The translations under genes were made by a program, and so were the position numbers. A DNA stretch of 64,000 nucleotides from Thiobacillus denitrificans ATCC 25259 (GTDB lineage Bacteria > Pseudomonadota > Gammaproteobacteria > Burkholderiales > Thiobacillaceae), in the NCBI RefSeq assembly GCF_000012745.1, contig NC_007404.1, forward strand, positions 1,922,001 to 1,986,000, written 5' to 3'. The notes beneath the pieces are model-generated. The model saw nothing but the letters and a program-made list of their open reading frames with translations, had not been told where the DNA came from and searched no databases. Positions 2,132 through 18,355 of this stretch are shown in pieces; the first letter of the stretch is position 1, and each line of letters starts with the position of its first letter.

Positions 2132-2334
2132 GACTGGCCACCGTCGGCGCCAGAAACTGACGGGGGAACCGCGTGGGCGGCGAGCATGGTTTCGAGGTCG
2201 GTGAGACTTAGCCCAGAGCGTCGAACCGCCTCAAAAACCCGCTGCTGTTCACGTTCGCGTTGGCGTTTTTTCTCTTCACGCAACGCTCGCTTGGCGCGCT
2301 CCAGGCGCTCTTGCAAAATGCTGATATCCGTCAT
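2128..2334 (-). CDS. Small charged coiled-coil protein at the head of the mobilization operon
   Basis: This 68-residue protein is very rich in Arg, Glu and Lys in its first half (ERLERAKRALREEKKRQRER), then has a possible short helix-turn-helix (RSGLSLTDLETML). I do not recognise a family. It is the first gene of the operon and is coupled to the TrwA-like gene by an ATGA overlap. A GGGGAA ribosome-binding site precedes the ATG at 2334. A DNA-binding or relaxosome-assembly role is plausible from position and charge, but is inference. Confidence 0.6.
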   Translation of the reverse strand: MTDISILQERLERAKRALREEKKRQREREQQRVFEAVRRSGLSLTDLETMLAAHAVPPSVSGADGGQS

Positions 2335-2479
2335 GTCACTTCCCCATCAGTTGCACATACCCAATATGTCGCGGGCGCGGACACGTTTTTCGTGACACGC
2401 GGAAAGCGGCACGGAGCAAAGGAAGCCCGGGAAAAGCGGCGCACGCGGTAACACGGGCGTGTGACGCGGAGACCCACAG

Positions 2480-2568
2480 CCCACGCGGGTTTCCGGCGAA
2501 GCCGGGCCGCAGGCAGTGCGTGGGGTGTGTCTTCTAAGATTGGGGCCCGCGAGCGAAGCGAAGCGGGC
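2480..2568 (+). other. Candidate origin of transfer (oriT) with nested inverted repeats and a nic-like TGTCT
   Basis: CCCACGC (2480-2486) and GCGTGGG (2518-2524) form an outer inverted repeat enclosing CCGGC-GAA-GCCGG (2493-2505). Immediately 3' lies GTGTCT (2527-2532), which resembles the TGTCT that precedes the nick in R388 oriT; R388 also has a hairpin just 5' of its nick. A further stem GCCCGC/GCGGGC spans 2545-2568. On this strand the relaxase module would enter the recipient last, as in R388. The 319-base gap 2335-2653 otherwise holds no gene. The match is by eye. Confidence 0.5.
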
Positions 2569-2653
2569 AACTAATGTTCCGCACTGACGAGCCGATACTC
2601 CTAATGCCAGCGAGCTGTTATGGCCGATCGGGAATCAAGAAAGGGAGAATCAA

Positions 2654-3172
2654 ATGGGATTTTTTATTAGAGCTTTGTCGGTCCTAAACGGGGTGCGTGA
2701 GTGGGCTTCGTTCGCGCATGAGGCGTTTTCCTGGCGGGGCCTTGCAAAGCGCACGGCGGCGGCGGCAGCGGGGGCTGCGGTTATCGCTACGCCCGTCGTG
2801 GTGATGTCCAAGCCGTCGGCGCCTGCGGAGGCTGTCTCCGCGCAAGGACCGGCGCACACCGAGAGCGCTGCCGAGGTGGAGGACAAGATCGAGAAGATCG
2901 GTCCCGACAACATCTATTCCAAGGTGTACCTGAGCCAGCCTGAGCATCAGGGCTTGATGGACGCGATCATCGCCAAGTGCAAAGTAACCAACGAGCTTCC
3001 TGCGCAGCAATGCGACATCGCTGTACATACGAAGGCTTGGTTGGCGCACCGCGCCTTTCTGGCGGAACAATCCAAAAAAGTGCAAGAGGCGGACAGGCGG
3101 CTACGCGAATCGCTCAATTCACCTTCGGCGGGCGCGACTGGGCCCACCCAGATCCGGATGTTTAAGGAGTAA
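2654..3172 (+). CDS. Unrecognised membrane-anchored protein in the putative leading region
   Basis: This 172-residue protein follows a good Shine-Dalgarno (AAGGGAG) and starts at the ATG at 2654. Residues about 33-50 (TAAAAAGAAVIATPVVVM) form one hydrophobic segment, which would leave the C-terminal 120 residues in the periplasm or cytoplasm. That part contains two cysteines (CKVTNELPAQQC) and a charged helical tail. It is transcribed away from the candidate oriT, so it would be among the first genes to enter a recipient. I do not recognise a family. Confidence 0.6.
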   Translation: MGFFIRALSVLNGVREWASFAHEAFSWRGLAKRTAAAAAGAAVIATPVVVMSKPSAPAEAVSAQGPAHTESAAEVEDKIEKIGPDNIYSKVYLSQPEHQGLMDAIIAKCKVTNELPAQQCDIAVHTKAWLAHRAFLAEQSKKVQEADRRLRESLNSPSAGATGPTQIRMFKE

Positions 3173-3238
3173 ATGGCGGGCGCCGGTCCCGCCGCGCGCC
3201 GACGGCGCCGGACCGTCGTCACCCGTAACGATTACCGA

Positions 3239-3290
3239 TTCGGAAACCCATTTCGGAAAAGCATTTCCGAAAGGCGCTTCGGAAAGGACT
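3239..3290. repeat. Four iteron-like TTCSGAAA repeats at exact 13-bp spacing
   Basis: TTCGGAAA occurs at 3239, 3252 and 3278, and the one-base variant TTCCGAAA at 3265. The four start positions are exactly 13 bp apart, so copies lie on slightly different helical faces. Such arrays bind replication initiators or repressors. The site lies about 320 bp beyond the stop of the RepC-like gene, next to two strong hairpins, which suggests a replication origin. Confidence 0.6.
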
Positions 3291-3413
3291 AGTTAGAGCA
3301 ACCTCAGCAAACGTACCAGAAGGCCGCGGCACGGTCCGCGCGTCGGGTGGTGGATGGCTTCACTGCCGGCGGCGGCAATGCTGGTACTGTTTCTCCCGCC
3401 CAATGGAGACAAT

Positions 3414-10986: not shown

Positions 10987-12177
10987 ATGCATATACGGAA
11001 ATTCTGGTTGCTTTTTGCCCAGTCGGTGACGGTCGCACTCGGCGCGCTCGTCGTCGTCGCGCTCTTCAAACCCGATTTGCTGCAATGGCGTGCCCAGACC
11101 CCGAATCTCACGATCCAGCAGGCCCGTCCCCAAGGCGGCGGCACGGTCACCGTCGCGCCCAATGAGTCCTTCGCGCTGGCGGCGCAAAAGGTCATTCCAT
11201 CGGTGGTCAACGTGTTCACGCAGCAAAAGGTCCGCAACCCTGCGCATCCTGCGATGCAGGATCCGATTTTTCGCTACTTCTTCGGTGATCGGCTCGACGC
11301 GCGGCCGCGCGAGGTGTCCAACCTCGGCTCGGGGGTCATCGTCACGACCAACGGCTACATCCTGACCAACCACCACGTCGTCGATGCCGCGGACCAGATC
11401 GAGGTCGCCCTTGCCGACGGCAAGACCGTGCCGGCGCGGGTGATCGGCGCGGACCCCGAGACCGACCTCGCCGTCCTCAAGATCGATGCGGAAAAGCTGC
11501 CGGCGATCACCTTCGCCAACGCCGACAGCCTCAAGGTCGGCGACTGGGTGCTCGCGGTCGGCAACCCCTTCGGCGTTGGCCAGACCGTGACCGCGGGCAT
11601 CGTGAGTGCACTCGGCCGGACCCGGTTGGGCATCAATACTTTCGAGAACTTCATTCAGACCGACGCGGCGATCAACCCGGGCAACTCGGGCGGCGCGCTC
11701 GTCGACTCGGCGGGTAACCTGGTCGGGGTGAACAGCGCGATCTACTCGCGCACGGGCGGCTCGCAAGGCATCGGCTTCGCGATTCCGGTCAGCATCGCCC
11801 GTCAGGTGATGGAACAGATCATCAAGTCCGGCAGCGTGACCCGCGGCTGGGTAGGGGTCGAGGTGCAGGACCTGACGCCGGAGCTCGCCGAGTCGTTCAA
11901 CCTGCCCGACGTCAACGGCGCCTTGATCGCCGGGGTTCTCAAGGGCGGGCCTGCCGATACCGGCGGGGTGCGGCCCGGCGACATTCTGCTCGCGGTCAAC
12001 GGCCGCAGGGTGACCGACTCGGCGTCCCTGCTCAACCTGATCGCGGAACTCACGCCCGGCCAGAGCGCGCGACTGACCGTCGCCCGCAAGCAGCGCTCGC
12101 TCGATCTCAAGGTCGAGGTGGGACGGCGGCCGCTGCAGCGCGCCCTGCCGATGCCGCCCGAGCCGGCGCTCGAATAA
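10987..12177 (+). CDS. Periplasmic HtrA/DegS-type serine protease with one PDZ domain
   Basis: This 396-residue protein has an N-terminal membrane anchor (about 7-27). The trypsin-like triad is His130 (TNHHVV), Asp160 (TDLAVLKID) and Ser234 (NPGNSGGAL), and a single C-terminal PDZ domain covers about 285-375. One PDZ and a non-cleaved anchor make it closer to DegS/HtrA2 than to DegP. It likely handles envelope protein quality control. The downstream ECF sigma/anti-sigma genes are convergent, and a role in their signalling is possible but not shown. Confidence 0.92.
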   Translation: MHIRKFWLLFAQSVTVALGALVVVALFKPDLLQWRAQTPNLTIQQARPQGGGTVTVAPNESFALAAQKVIPSVVNVFTQQKVRNPAHPAMQDPIFRYFFGDRLDARPREVSNLGSGVIVTTNGYILTNHHVVDAADQIEVALADGKTVPARVIGADPETDLAVLKIDAEKLPAITFANADSLKVGDWVLAVGNPFGVGQTVTAGIVSALGRTRLGINTFENFIQTDAAINPGNSGGALVDSAGNLVGVNSAIYSRTGGSQGIGFAIPVSIARQVMEQIIKSGSVTRGWVGVEVQDLTPELAESFNLPDVNGALIAGVLKGGPADTGGVRPGDILLAVNGRRVTDSASLLNLIAELTPGQSARLTVARKQRSLDLKVEVGRRPLQRALPMPPEPALE

Positions 12178-12225: not shown

Positions 12226-12954
12226 TTAGACCCGGATGTAGGTCCACCCCTGCTGCAGGCGGGTGACGATTTCGCCGATCGCGGTCGGCGCCGTGCGCGT
12301 AGGAGGCAGGAGTTCGACCCGCTGACCCTCACTCCTGTAACGCGCGATCGACTGGCCGCACGCGACCCATTGCAGGTTGACATGCCGCTGCGTCATGCGC
12401 GCCACGCGTTCGGCATAGGGGCTGTGACCCGCGCGCAGCAATTCGATCCCACGGCTGTTGGCGATGACTTCGAGTTCCAGGGGGCGCCGTTCCCGTTCGG
12501 CCTCGTCGAGCAGCCGTTCCGCGCGGTCGAGCACCGCACGCATCCGCTCGGGCGCGGCGGAGTCGAGATGCAGCAGGACCCGGTTCGGATCGACCTCGCG
12601 CGCCAGGCTGACGACCTGATACCCGTCCGGCAAGGCCAACAGGCGCGCCGCGGCCGCGGTGTCGATGTCGACGCCGCGCAAGGCCCAGCCTCCGATACCG
12701 GCCGCGAGCATGAGACAGCCGAAGGCACAGCGCCGCGCCAGCTGGCGGCGGGGCACGGCGCGCTCGCTGCGGGCCGGCCCCGGGGGCCGCGCGTACGCGA
12801 GTTGCACCATGCTCTTCAGGCTGCGAAGGCTGCAGACGCGCTGCGCCAGTTCGCTGTCCTCGCGCATGCGCGCAACGAGCGCCTCGCTCTCGGGAACACT
12901 GAGTTCCCCGTCGACAAAAGCCTGCAGGATTTCGTCGGACACTACCGATTTCAT
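12226..12954 (-). CDS. Anti-sigma factor with a periplasmic DsrE/DsrF-like domain
   Basis: The ATG at 12954 overlaps the sigma-factor stop (TCAT, 12951-12954), giving 242 residues. Residues 1-50 resemble a class-type anti-sigma domain (DEILQAFVDGELSVPESEALVARM) without the zinc HxxxCxxC motif. A membrane helix lies at about 75-93. The periplasmic part, about 113-242, is a DsrE/DsrF-like fold (VLLHLDSAAPERMRAVLDRAE..., WVACGQSIARYRSEG) with one conserved cysteine at 199. The fusion suggests a sulfur- or redox-responsive sensor that releases the sigma factor. The link between domain and signal is inference. Confidence 0.75.
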   Translation of the reverse strand: MKSVVSDEILQAFVDGELSVPESEALVARMREDSELAQRVCSLRSLKSMVQLAYARPPGPARSERAVPRRQLARRCAFGCLMLAAGIGGWALRGVDIDTAAAARLLALPDGYQVVSLAREVDPNRVLLHLDSAAPERMRAVLDRAERLLDEAERERRPLELEVIANSRGIELLRAGHSPYAERVARMTQRHVNLQWVACGQSIARYRSEGQRVELLPPTRTAPTAIGEIVTRLQQGWTYIRV

Positions 12955-13499
12955 TTCACCCTCCACAATGACGGCCCGGCCGCGGTTTGTGCCGCGTCGA
13001 GCCGTTTCTTCAGGTTGGCACGGGCCCGCGACAGGCGGCTCATCACGGTGCCGACTGGAATGTTCAGGATGCCCGCCACCTCGGCATAGCCGAATTCCTC
13101 AAGGTCGACGAGCGTGACCACTTGGCGCTGCGCAGGCGGCAGCTGCGCGACCGCACTTCTGATACAGGCGACCACGCGCTCGCGGTCGCAGCATGCCTCG
13201 GGCGAGTCGCCCGCCGACTCGAGTTCGTCCTCCCATTCCTCGATGTCCTCGAACTCGCGCCGGCGGCGAAGATGGTCGACCCAGCAATGGTTCATGATCG
13301 AGACCACCCAGCCCTTTAACGCCGCGTCCTCACGGAGCTGGGCGCGGCGCGCCCAGGCCTTGGATAATGCCTCCTGGACGAGATCGTCGGCGAGTGCGGG
13401 GTCGTGGCACCAAGCGTAGGCGATGCGGTACAACATCGGCCGCAGGGCTTCAAGAGTGGGTCGAAAGGGGCCGAATAGGAAGTGGCTCATCAGGCTCAT
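12951..13499 (-). CDS. ECF-family RNA polymerase sigma factor
   Basis: Region 2 (LRPMLYRIAYAWCHDPALADDLVQEALSKAWARR) and region 4 (YAEVAGILNIPVGTVMSRLSRARANLKKRL) are clear. An upstream ATG at 13526 falls inside a likely -35 box, so I prefer the ATG at 13499, which gives 182 residues. The mRNA from the -10 box at 13511-13506 would begin at or beside this codon, so it may be leaderless. It is coupled to the anti-sigma gene and probably drives its own promoter and that of the divergent DsrE gene. Confidence 0.9.
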   Translation of the reverse strand: MSLMSHFLFGPFRPTLEALRPMLYRIAYAWCHDPALADDLVQEALSKAWARRAQLREDAALKGWVVSIMNHCWVDHLRRRREFEDIEEWEDELESAGDSPEACCDRERVVACIRSAVAQLPPAQRQVVTLVDLEEFGYAEVAGILNIPVGTVMSRLSRARANLKKRLDAAQTAAGPSLWRVK

Positions 13500-13505
13500 G
13501 GAAGG

Positions 13506-13533
13506 GAGACGCCGCGGGTGGTCCATTTATTCC
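13506..13533 (-). promoter_or_regulatory. ECF-type promoter of the sigma/anti-sigma operon
   Basis: Minus-strand GGAATAA (13533-13527) is followed after 15 bases by CGTCTC (13511-13506). It matches the divergent promoter in both boxes and spacing, as expected for autoregulation by one ECF sigma factor. Confidence 0.7.
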
Positions 13534-13555
13534 AGAAAAAAACCGCGTCGGCTAT

Positions 13556-13583
13556 GGAATAAGCGTGCGTGTCGAGGCGTCTT
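13556..13583 (+). promoter_or_regulatory. ECF-type promoter of the secreted DsrE gene
   Basis: GGAATAA (13556-13562) and CGTCTT (13578-13583) are separated by 15 bases, the same layout as the divergent promoter. The first downstream start is the DsrE gene at 13634 behind AAAAGGAGA. Confidence 0.7.
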
Positions 13584-13633
13584 CCTACTAGGCTTGGATA
13601 AAGCCGATATCAAAACCAAAAGGAGACCCCGCA

Positions 13634-14086
13634 ATGTCACACATCTTTCCCCCTCTGCTGATTACCCTGCTGCTCGCCGGCGCACCGGCGGCACACGCCG
13701 CATCTGCGCAGGCCGCTGCGCCCGCGACGGCCGAGGTGCAGGAAAAGGTCGTCTACCACGTCAACGACGCGTCGTTGGCCCGCATGGCCTTGACCAATAT
13801 CAACAACCACCTGAACGCCAGCCCGAACGCGAAAATCGTCGTCGTCACCCACGGCAAGGGCATCGACTTCCTGCTCAACGACGCCAAGGACAGCAAAGGC
13901 GCCTTCGCGCCGGTCGTCGCCGGCATCAAGGAAAAGGGGGTCGATTTCCGCGTCTGCCGTAACACGCTCAAAGGCCGCAGCCTCGGTGACGACGCCGTCA
14001 TCATGGAGGCGAACGTCGTGCCGTCCGGCGTCGCAGAAGTCGCCAAGCTGCAGGCCCGGGAAGGCTACGTCTATCTGAAGCCCTAA
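13634..14086 (+). CDS. Secreted DsrE/DsrF-like protein
   Basis: This 150-residue protein has a signal peptide ending near AAHA (residues 1-22), then a DsrE-like domain (VVYHVNDASLARMALTNINNHL, KIVVVTHGKGIDFLL) with one cysteine in FRVCRNTLKG. Intracellular DsrE proteins carry sulfur on cysteine; this one is periplasmic. It sits under an ECF promoter facing the sigma operon whose anti-sigma factor has the same fold, so it may sense or bind the same ligand. Confidence 0.8.
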   Translation: MSHIFPPLLITLLLAGAPAAHAASAQAAAPATAEVQEKVVYHVNDASLARMALTNINNHLNASPNAKIVVVTHGKGIDFLLNDAKDSKGAFAPVVAGIKEKGVDFRVCRNTLKGRSLGDDAVIMEANVVPSGVAEVAKLQAREGYVYLKP

Positions 14087-14220: not shown

Positions 14221-15513
14221 GTGAAAACGAAAATCATCGTTCTGCTCGCCACCTGTCTACCGCTGTCCACCCAAGCCGCCAACTGGCTTCAGGTGCAGGG
14301 CAACGAAGCACCCGGCAGCCCCCGTTTCAAGCCTTTCGGCTTTTTTCAGCCGACCTATACCGCCATCGACGCCGATCCGATCGACGGGCTGCTTGGTGCC
14401 GCTGCACCCTTCAACGGCCAGCTCACCCTGCCCAACCGCGTAGGGCCCGCACTGGACGACAAGGACGAGCTGCAGTTCTTCCGCGCCCGCCTGGGCCTGC
14501 GCGGCAATATCGTGCCGAGCCGGATCAATTACTTCCTTCTGGCCGAGGCCGGGAAGAACGCGATCACCTCGCAGCGGGATCTGATGATGACCGACGCGTC
14601 GGTCACCTTCAATTACATTCCGGGCGCCCGCGTGCGCGCCGGCCTGTTCAAACTGCCGACCAGCGAGGAGGCGCTGGTGGCGGTGCATCAGGCCTACCAC
14701 TACGTCTACTTCAGCAATGCCGCGACCAATCTGCTCGTCGAAAATCAGGTCAAGTCGACAGGCGCAGTCAACGCGACCGGCGCGTCCAACGGCGCGACCG
14801 TCAGCGCCGGCTCGGGCTTCCGCGACTGGGGCGTCCAGGTCTACGACTGGTTCAACCGGGGCGCCTGGGAGTTTTCCTATGCGCTGATGGTGTCGAACGG
14901 CAACGAGATCGAGGAATTCTCCGACAACGACGGCAACAAGGACGTCACCGGCCGCTTGCAGGCGTCCTACGTTTTCGGCAAGAGCAAGGGACCCAAGCGC
15001 GAAGACGCCTCGGTCTGGCTGTGGCATCAGACCGGCGAGCGCGAATTCGGCGGCGAAGACTTCGACCGCATTCGCGAAGGCGTCGGCGCGCGCTACCAGA
15101 AAGGCCCGTGGCGCGCGACCGCCGAATACCTGCGCGGCGACGGCATGATCGTCGGCGGGCCCAACCCGCCCTTCCCCGCCCAGCCGGTCCAGATCGGCAC
15201 CAACGAGAAAGCGGACGGCTGGTACCTCGAGGGCGGCTGGCGCTTCCACAAGAGCTGGGAAGTCGACCTGCGCCATGACGTGTTCAACCGCATGACCGAG
15301 ACTGCCGCGCTGGAACGGCAATTCACGACGACGACGCTGGGGGTGAACTGGTTCTTCTACAAGAACACGCGGCTGACGTTGAACTACGAGTGGCGCGACC
15401 TGGAGGTTCCGAACCCATCCGCCATCCCGGCCGGCGCCCAGCGCACCAACGCGCAAGCGATCGCAGACAACCTGGGCGACCGCGCCAGCGTGCAGCTGAC
15501 CTGGTTCTTCTGA
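14221..15513 (+). CDS. Outer-membrane porin of the phosphate-selective OprO/OprP type
   Basis: The start is the GTG at 14221 (Shine-Dalgarno GGGAGGAAG). The product is 430 residues with a signal peptide ending in STQAA. It is a 16-strand-type beta barrel: alternating strands, FFRARLGLRGNI near the start, and a C-terminal phenylalanine (TWFF) for BAM insertion. The family label OprO/OprP is by pattern. A 9-bp stem (CCGGGGCGG/CCGCCCCGG, 14099-14127) lies between it and the DsrE gene without a U-run, so partial read-through from the ECF promoter is possible. Confidence 0.75.
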   Translation: MKTKIIVLLATCLPLSTQAANWLQVQGNEAPGSPRFKPFGFFQPTYTAIDADPIDGLLGAAAPFNGQLTLPNRVGPALDDKDELQFFRARLGLRGNIVPSRINYFLLAEAGKNAITSQRDLMMTDASVTFNYIPGARVRAGLFKLPTSEEALVAVHQAYHYVYFSNAATNLLVENQVKSTGAVNATGASNGATVSAGSGFRDWGVQVYDWFNRGAWEFSYALMVSNGNEIEEFSDNDGNKDVTGRLQASYVFGKSKGPKREDASVWLWHQTGEREFGGEDFDRIREGVGARYQKGPWRATAEYLRGDGMIVGGPNPPFPAQPVQIGTNEKADGWYLEGGWRFHKSWEVDLRHDVFNRMTETAALERQFTTTTLGVNWFFYKNTRLTLNYEWRDLEVPNPSAIPAGAQRTNAQAIADNLGDRASVQLTWFF

Positions 15514-15557
15514 CCGGCGACCCCGTCTTCCTCCTGCGGCGGCCTCGGGCCGCTTTT

Positions 15558-17845: not shown

Positions 17846-18355
17846 ATGAAAGCATTCCTCGCTGCGTGGGTCGGGCTGTGGCTCGGGTGCGCGCCGCCCG
17901 CGCTCGCGGACGCAAAATGGGTCGCGACGTCCTACGCGCCGCCCAAGGTGGTATTCGAGTTCTTTCTCGACCATCCGCAGAAGATCGCGAGTGCCCTCTA
18001 CTGGCTGCGCTCGCTGACCAACCCGCTGATGGACGCCCCCTACAACTACGCCCCCGAGGACCTCGACATCGTGGTCGTCGTCCACGGCACGGAAATCGTG
18101 ACGCTCGCGAAGCGCAACGAAGCCCGGTATGAGGAAGCGGTCGAGCGCATGCGTTATTACGCGGAACTGGGCGTGCGCTTCAAGGTGTGCGGCGAGGCGG
18201 CTGCCGAATACGGTTACGTGCTGCGCGATTTCCAGGATTTCGTCGAGGTCGTCCCCAATGCGATCACCGAGCTCGCGCATTGGCAGCAGCAAGGCTACGC
18301 GCTGATCGTGCCGCGGGTGATGGAGCGGACGGTCGACCTCGACGCGATCCGCTAG
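17846..18355 (+). CDS. Secreted DsrE-like protein, second copy
   Basis: This 169-residue protein has a signal peptide (cleavage near ALADA) and a DsrE-like core (DLDIVVVVHGTEIVTLAKRNE, RFKVCGEAAAEYGY). One cysteine sits in FKVCGEAA, equivalent to the cysteine of the ECF-controlled DsrE protein. It follows rsgA by 36 bases with its own Shine-Dalgarno (AGGAGCG). No ECF-like promoter was seen upstream. Confidence 0.75.
   Translation: MKAFLAAWVGLWLGCAPPALADAKWVATSYAPPKVVFEFFLDHPQKIASALYWLRSLTNPLMDAPYNYAPEDLDIVVVVHGTEIVTLAKRNEARYEEAVERMRYYAELGVRFKVCGEAAAEYGYVLRDFQDFVEVVPNAITELAHWQQQGYALIVPRVMERTVDLDAIR

Follow-up and report, generated by a model that had tools for sequence, protein, structure and literature searches.

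The window analysed here, 64,000 nucleotides corresponding to bases 1922001–1986000 of the single-contig genome (2,909,809 bases) of Thiobacillus denitrificans ATCC 25259, contains a small regulatory module consisting of genes for an extracytoplasmic function (ECF) sigma factor and its membrane-bound anti-sigma factor and, in the opposite direction, genes for a soluble DsrE-family protein and a porin. In the anti-sigma factor, a cytoplasmic portion made of helices is joined by a single membrane-spanning helix to a periplasmic domain of the DsrE fold, in which one cysteine, Cys199, is invariant. Our preferred interpretation, to which we assign a probability of about 0.62, is that the module is an autoregulated, ECF26-like switch reading periplasmic sulfur species through Cys199. 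The architecture, fold and invariant cysteine of the anti-sigma factor, the conserved divergent promoters, the co-occurrence with soxB and dsrA, and the repeated presence of DsrE and SoxB-like genes downstream of the promoter motif were established computationally. On computational grounds the case for involvement in sulfur oxidation is strong, and the sensing mechanism suggested by these sequence comparisons is plausible. The DsrE fold is known as a cytoplasmic sulfur carrier; if our interpretation is true, it can also act as a transmembrane sensor domain.

In the anti-sigma factor, a hydrophobic segment comes after the sequence RRQLARR, and the C-terminus should therefore be periplasmic. A Pfam scan of this protein gave no PF02635 match up to an E-value of 1, the family gathering score not being reached, and the only matches up to that value were Nif11 (0.0053) and MDY2_C (0.15), both below their cut-offs. 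The DsrE fold was recognised as follows: i) in a PDB profile search, a profile of 39 anti-sigma homologs matched 1L1S (MTH1491) with an E-value of 5.4e-13 and the conserved cysteines aligned, ii) hhalign comparison of the DsrE part with the profile of the soluble DsrE proteins gave 97.8% (E-value 7.8e-13), and iii) an AlphaFold model built from 15 sequences, with block predicted local distance difference test (pLDDT) values of 86–96 over residues 121–240, 80 for the last two residues and under 50 for the linker including the membrane helix (residues 58–109), resembles 1L1S with a template modelling score, TM(target), of 0.89 and a root mean square deviation of 1.7. Other structures matched by the predicted model were YchN (1JX7, 4.9e-4) and DsrEFH (2HY5, 0.026). 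Cys199 is placed by the model at the end of a strand and the start of a helix, where 1L1S has the family cysteine. Cys199, Asp15 and Trp237 are each present in 96 of 96 fusion sequences and His129 in 92, Cys41 being retained in only 75; no second invariant cysteine was found among the 96 sequences. The HxxxCxxC motif in the N-terminal domain is the mark of the zinc-binding anti-sigma (ZAS) factors, and no such set is present among the conserved N-terminal columns of these sequences.

The soluble DsrE protein matches PF02635 directly (9.9e-11; 42.3 bits vs a cut-off of 22.7), and its N-terminus, judged by eye, resembles a signal peptide. Its Cys108 is found in 81 of 84 DsrE-type neighbour sequences, the remaining 3 having a gap at this position. 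Proteins of the DsrE/MTH1491 family carry sulfur on cysteine and form trimers or hexamers. In a tree of the fused (96) and soluble (95) domains, the two sets split at one branch with a support of 0.998 (FastTree, one run, unrooted), which points to a single old fusion kept beside soluble relatives and not to repeated duplications; recent duplication as the origin of either form was rejected. A preliminary description of this DNA had already proposed a cytoplasmic domain, one helix and a periplasmic DsrE-like domain with Cys199 for the anti-sigma factor and a secreted DsrE-like product for the divergent gene, and had made its proposal depend on the C-terminal part folding as DsrE; the profile search and the predicted model agree with it on the DsrE domain.

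The sequence GGAATAA-N15-CGTCT, which the same description had given for both promoters, was found at both places and has 2 matches in the 2.9-Mb genome, both at the module (control 0). Its conservation was surveyed in 94 loci encoding the full-length fusion, of which 35 belong to Thiobacillus and its near relatives and 59 to more distant organisms; some genomes contribute two or three of these loci, and L129, which has no full-length fusion, was dropped. For footprinting, the relaxed pattern GGAATA-N15-17-CGTC was searched for 480–1000 bases before the anti-sigma start, with the pattern read backwards as the control. The motif was detected on the sigma strand in 72 of the 94 loci, on the divergent strand in 56 and on both in 54 (control 0/94 and 0/94), the chance expectation being 0.0035 per search window and strand; in the 59 distant loci the corresponding numbers were 37, 21 and 19. 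The remainder of the loci (821,990 bases) contained 11 motif matches and 3 control matches. Both promoters are conserved beyond chance, and the sigma factor may be expected to bind them.

The motif also bears on the start of the sigma gene. The first ATG of this open reading frame (ORF), at 13526, falls between the −35 and −10 boxes of its own promoter, and relatives such as L005 and L006 have no ATG at the equivalent position. Since 13526 sits inside the promoter, the true start is probably one of the two ATG codons given in the table below. The anti-sigma ORF as first called begins at 12966, four residues upstream of the ATG at 12954; comparison with homologs, together with the overlap of the latter ATG and the stop codon of the sigma gene (ATGA), indicates that translation starts at 12954, and the numbering of Cys199 is therefore correct.

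A gene for a soluble DsrE protein accompanies the fusion in 72 of the 94 loci, being divergent in 62, downstream in the same direction in 7 and otherwise placed in 3. Six of 21 loci lacking a DsrE gene, all from distant organisms, were followed, and in these the divergent gene encodes either a homolog of the porin encoded in the window (L092, L100 and L132; 33–36% identity) or a SoxB-like phosphoesterase (L088, L104 and L107; 26–29% identity to the SoxB-like protein described below). In all six the motif lies 51–145 bases ahead of the called start of the divergent gene.

The 13 named relatives of the anti-sigma factor came mostly from Thiobacillus or Hydrogenophilales, the others being from unplaced proteobacterial metagenome-assembled genomes (MAGs), a betaproteobacterium, a member of the Acidiferrobacteraceae and a gammaproteobacterial MAG. 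A full-length fusion was found in 31 of 35 same-genus relatives, in G026 as two overlapping pieces. G017 has a match of DsrE length only, and G013, G019 and G022 have no match; all four of these assemblies are 81–87% complete. The search for other anti-sigma/DsrE fusions suggested in the preliminary description was made in a sample of 369 genomes of the class, where 93 matched the profile at 1e-5 and 66, distributed across 41 families, carried a full-length fusion, defined from the table of matched places as extending from profile position ≤15 to ≥234 (some places carry an internal TAA). That description had named a lack of co-occurrence in other genomes as evidence against its proposal, and the class sample shows the opposite. 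In a sample of the phylum, 20 of 398 genomes matched at 1e-10; among the places listed, 3 were full-length (from the genome itself, the same family and the same order) and the others began at profile position 60 or later. Two Rhizobium records from a plasmid collection matched in the DsrE part only (query 101–245) and were not accepted as fusions of this kind; in the annotated Rhizobium plasmid record the DsrE-part match lies beside a TlpA-type gene.

Within the class sample, soxB (TIGR04486, E-value below 1e-100; 150 genomes, 148 of them over the family cut-off) is present in 65 of the 66 fusion genomes vs 85 of the 303 others (Fisher 5.4e-29), dsrA (TIGR02064; 117 genomes) in 52 vs 65 (2.1e-18), and one or the other in 66/66 vs 96/303, all three comparisons being uncorrected for relatedness. 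TIGR04486 gave weak matches in 10 of 14 control genomes, none of them over the cut-off. The occurrence of the same switch in many bacteria with sulfur-oxidation genes makes it a good candidate for sensing sulfur compounds outside the cytoplasm. According to one report, little is understood of how regulators of sulfur-oxidizing prokaryotes sense external sulfur (PMC11582611). The module provides a specific candidate for such a sensor: its cysteine is invariant, its promoter is defined, its predicted targets are few, and it is present in 66 of the 369 sampled class genomes.

Recurring gene families were also found behind copies of the motif outside the module. In 40 genomes of the genus, GGAATAA-N15-CGTC occurs at 108 sites vs 34 for the control, 68 of the 108 being the module's own. 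Of the 40 outside sites, 14 are followed within 330 bases by a DsrE gene, 13 of these genes scoring better than 1e-30, and 6 lie upstream of a SoxB-like gene. With a chance per outside site of about 0.0003 (a rough estimate assuming six target genes per genome), such recurrence is not what chance would give. The third N15 site of T. denitrificans itself (G000:C1:2100957-2100982; L198) precedes the gene for a 728-aa SoxB-like secreted metallophosphoesterase. Its best NCBIfam model is SoxB (TIGR04486; 2e-54), and since its score of 184.9 bits is far below the cut-off of 550, the gene is a paralog and not soxB. When one mismatch was allowed in the promoter as a way to a larger regulon, the genome gave 75 sites vs 86 for the control, and no inference was drawn.

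Some other genes behind the motif are worth recording. An N16 site (G000:C1:2777279-2777305; L141), the fourth site of the genome when spacers of N14-16 are allowed and not counted above, lies 53 bases before a gene for a PimT-like methyltransferase, which is followed by a rhodanese-like ORF, both assignments having been made by eye. Similar tetratricopeptide repeat (TPR) proteins with signal-peptide-like starts are encoded 31–51 bases behind the motif in G003, G007, G031 and G011 (L190, L191, L207 and L215), the repeats of the L190 protein being confirmed by Pfam, and a similar protein is encoded about 200 bases behind it in G002 (L199).

The promoter boxes are those given for group ECF26 (−35 GGAAT, −10 CGTC) in two reports (PMC6527743, PMC6180224). 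The ECF26 factors of Sinorhizobium meliloti and Starkeya are tied to growth on thiosulfate, taurine or tetrathionate, which the authors mostly regard as a response to sulfite (PMC3511301, PMC6527743, PMC6180224). The studied systems (RpoE1/RpoE4 with sorT in S. meliloti, SigE with sorAB in Starkeya novella) share with the present module the GGAAT/CGTC boxes and a link to periplasmic sulfur oxidation, and the regulon in S. meliloti is likewise small and autoregulated. In contrast, the periplasmic part of their anti-sigma factors is reported to be somewhat RsiW-like (COG5662), whereas here it has the DsrE fold; the targets studied are sulfite dehydrogenases, whereas here the predicted targets are DsrE, porin and SoxB-like proteins; and the systems are from Alphaproteobacteria, with no DsrE partner mentioned in the sections available.

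The sigma factor shares 35% identity over 176 aa with a sigma factor of pSymA that we take to be RpoE6. The record itself is unannotated, and this identification is based on the gene that follows, which encodes an anti-sigma factor with the same N-terminal motif, and on a divergent subtilase gene, which fits the published arrangement of rpoE6 and a serine protease gene. Residues 2–51 of our anti-sigma factor align with the anti-sigma factor beside the presumed RpoE6 (E-value 2.1e-6), the alignment being limited to these residues. For both sigma factors the best NCBIfam model is PRK12511, below its cut-off and, for RpoE6, nearly tied with PRK12546. The periplasmic part of the anti-sigma factor differs, and the module is therefore called ECF26-like and not an established member of ECF26.

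The preliminary description knew of no described system of this kind. This stands for the DsrE sensor, since searches of the open-licence literature, not including the 2021 ECF re-classification, turned up no account of an anti-sigma factor with a DsrE domain; it does not stand for the sigma/promoter part, which matches the sulfite-linked ECF26. New here are the dsrE and SoxB-like genes recurring behind the motif. The branch of MTH1491 (1L1S) and ST0148 has the same fold and an aligned cysteine, but its members were solved as stand-alone proteins of 108–113 residues that have neither a membrane anchor nor an anti-sigma segment. The sulfur-relay proteins DsrEFH and YchN belong to the same fold class as the anti-sigma DsrE domain, as does TusBCD, but all of these are cytoplasmic carriers and not sensors fused to an anti-sigma factor. 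SoxR/SoxT1B of Hyphomicrobium denitrificans also controls sulfur oxidation by external sulfur, but consists of a repressor and a transporter-like protein, and the abstracts name neither a sigma factor nor a DsrE sensor for it (PMC11582611, PMC10451225).

By homology with known ECF systems, the module probably comprises an autoregulated sigma factor held by a membrane anti-sigma factor. We infer the promoter binding, the release step, the identity and chemistry of the signal, and the roles of the soluble DsrE protein and the porin, as follows. The sigma factor would be kept at the membrane by the N-terminal helices of the anti-sigma factor, which the membrane helix connects to the periplasmic DsrE domain. 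Sulfur in a reduced or reactive form, such as sulfane sulfur/persulfide or sulfite, would be loaded on, or removed from, Cys199, and this change would shift the conformation or oligomeric state of the domain. The sigma factor would then be released, either directly or by proteolysis, the evidence favouring neither, and would start transcription at GGAATAA-N15-CGTC of three units: the sigma/anti-sigma operon, dsrE with the porin gene on the opposite strand, and the gene for the SoxB-like secreted metallophosphoesterase elsewhere in the genome. The soluble DsrE protein may buffer or carry the same sulfur species, thereby tuning the signal, or may form mixed oligomers with the anchored domain, and the porin could let the relevant anions in or out.

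A more specific form of this model, which we put forward only tentatively, is a periplasmic sulfur relay: the soluble DsrE protein would take sulfane sulfur from Sox-type chemistry and hand it to the tethered DsrE domain, or form mixed trimers with it, so that the loading of the pool sets the release of the sigma factor. If true, such a relay would represent a type of transmembrane signalling based on sulfur carriers and common to many lineages of sulfur oxidizers. Sensing of a sulfur or redox signal in the periplasm through two related folds had been proposed in the preliminary description and is supported in part: the two folds are homologous and often kept together, the matched promoters are conserved, and the sulfur link is backed by the soxB/dsrA co-occurrence and by the predicted targets, while a sulfur or redox species may be the signal.

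Several observations weigh against sulfur sensing by the module as proposed. No DsrE gene is present in the sampled stretch of 22 of the 94 loci (29 loci have a flank of about 1.5 kb or less), and 20 of the 94 have the relaxed motif on neither side. The 40 outside sites in the genus are hardly more numerous than the 34 control-pattern sites, and 20 of them precede neither DsrE nor SoxB-like genes. With a single N15 target outside the module in T. denitrificans itself, a large sulfur regulon is not indicated. The soxB association ignores shared descent, and since 85 soxB genomes of the sample have no fusion, the fusion is not required for sulfur oxidation. The presence of porin and HtrA genes near the module would also suit envelope stress. 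In S. meliloti, moreover, the ECF26 factors were not activated by external sulfite at concentrations of up to 50 mM, and the authors assume that the activating sulfite must arise inside the cell.

One alternative is an envelope-stress module, in which the DsrE domain serves only as a folded plug or as a platform for oligomers, a DegS-like protease activated by damaged porins cuts the anti-sigma factor, and the regulon repairs the outer membrane. It would be consistent with the porin homolog in 36 of 70 loci surveyed for neighbours (4 of 10 in the genus group and 32 of 60 elsewhere) and with the membrane-anchored protease encoded convergently with the anti-sigma gene, which scores 6.3e-130 with the degP_htrA_DO model, over the cut-off, and 309 bits with the DegS model, below the 423 needed. 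However, this protease was found solely in loci of the genus and its relatives (later distant loci lying outside the survey), where it is sometimes the immediate neighbour and sometimes lies about 2 kb farther off, and the recurrent motif targets are DsrE and SoxB-like proteins. Since envelope stress also leaves the invariant Cys199 and the soxB association unexplained, we consider it unlikely; DegS/HtrA as a component of the module was set aside, its adjacency being local.

Equally improbable in our view is a thiol-redox, metal or oxidant sensor, in which Cys199 undergoes oxidation or binds a metal such as Cu, Hg or Zn, the ligand being something other than sulfur. ECF modules responding to metals and oxidants are known, and a single invariant cysteine with a conserved histidine (His129, 92/96) would suit such a sensor, but no second invariant cysteine is available for a disulfide and every one of the 66 fusion genomes has soxB or dsrA. 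Nor did Pfam scans of some of the neighbours in the window reveal a metal-resistance or peroxidase gene, and none was recognised when the 21 loci without DsrE were inspected by eye and 6 of their proteins scanned. That the sigma factor controls its own operon alone, the divergent dsrE being a chance neighbour under another promoter, would agree with both promoter sites having been read from sequence alone and with the 38 of 94 loci without a divergent motif, but is very improbable given the divergent motif in the other 56 (control 0) and the 14 additional sites in the genus where the motif precedes a dsrE gene, 13 scoring better than 1e-30.

Table 1. Features of the sigma/anti-sigma module and its neighbours (positions in the window)
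Feature	Position	Strand	Basis or remark
Membrane-anchored HtrA/DegS-like protease	10987-12177	+	Convergent with anti-sigma gene; possible site-1 protease
Anti-sigma factor coding sequence	12226..12954	-	ATG overlaps sigma stop (ATGA); Met conserved in homologs
DsrE-fold domain, predicted to be periplasmic, residues 121-242	12229..12594	-	PDB profile search, profile-profile match, model fold
Cys199 codon, invariant	12358..12360	-	96/96 fusion sequences
Predicted single transmembrane helix, residues 76-92	12679..12729	-	Sequence reading; model low-confidence there
Predicted N-terminal cytoplasmic anti-sigma domain, residues 1-54, three helices	12793..12954	-	AlphaFold model; residues 2-51 alignment
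ECF sigma factor coding sequence	12951..13499	-	Sigma70_r2 4e-15, Sigma70_r4_2 4.1e-18; start corrected to ATG 13499 or 13490
Putative sigma/anti-sigma operon promoter, GGAATAA-N15-CGTCT	13507..13533	-	Motif scan and footprinting across loci
Putative divergent dsrE promoter, GGAATAA-N15-CGTCT	13556..13582	+	Motif scan and footprinting across loci
DsrE protein, signal-peptide-like N-terminus; Cys108 codon 13955-13957	13634..14086	+	PF02635
Outer-membrane porin (Porin_O_P)	14221..15513	+	Pfam; porin homolog in 36/70 loci
Terminator-like hairpin after porin	15536..15554	+	Consensus match only

None of the terminator-like sites listed lies between dsrE and the porin gene, and the two are possibly co-transcribed. 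In the neighbour survey the sigma gene was present in 69 of the 70 loci and absent from L129. Another DsrE protein (17846-18355, + strand; PF02635 6.4e-15), whose start also resembles a signal peptide and which has a KVCGEA cysteine, is encoded 2.3 kb past the porin gene; none of the sites from a genome scan with GGAATAA-N14-16-CGTC precedes its gene. L038, L041 and L043 likewise have a second DsrE gene, which lies about 4 kb away from the fusion gene. Gammaproteobacterial MAGs (L078 and L079, the same places as L044 and L045) have two pairs of sigma and fusion anti-sigma genes in tandem, together with two DsrE genes. In a Thiobacillus MAG (L033:3889-4341, − strand), the DsrE protein begins with the lipobox-like LGLTGC and may be a lipoprotein. 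In L098, which has no DsrE gene in the sampled stretch, a thioredoxin-like protein with two Thioredoxin_2 stretches is encoded downstream of the fusion anti-sigma gene (2272-3293 in locus-oriented coordinates). The genome of T. denitrificans contains three dsrA-type genes above the family cut-off (G000:C1:1388079, 1449796 and 2559720).

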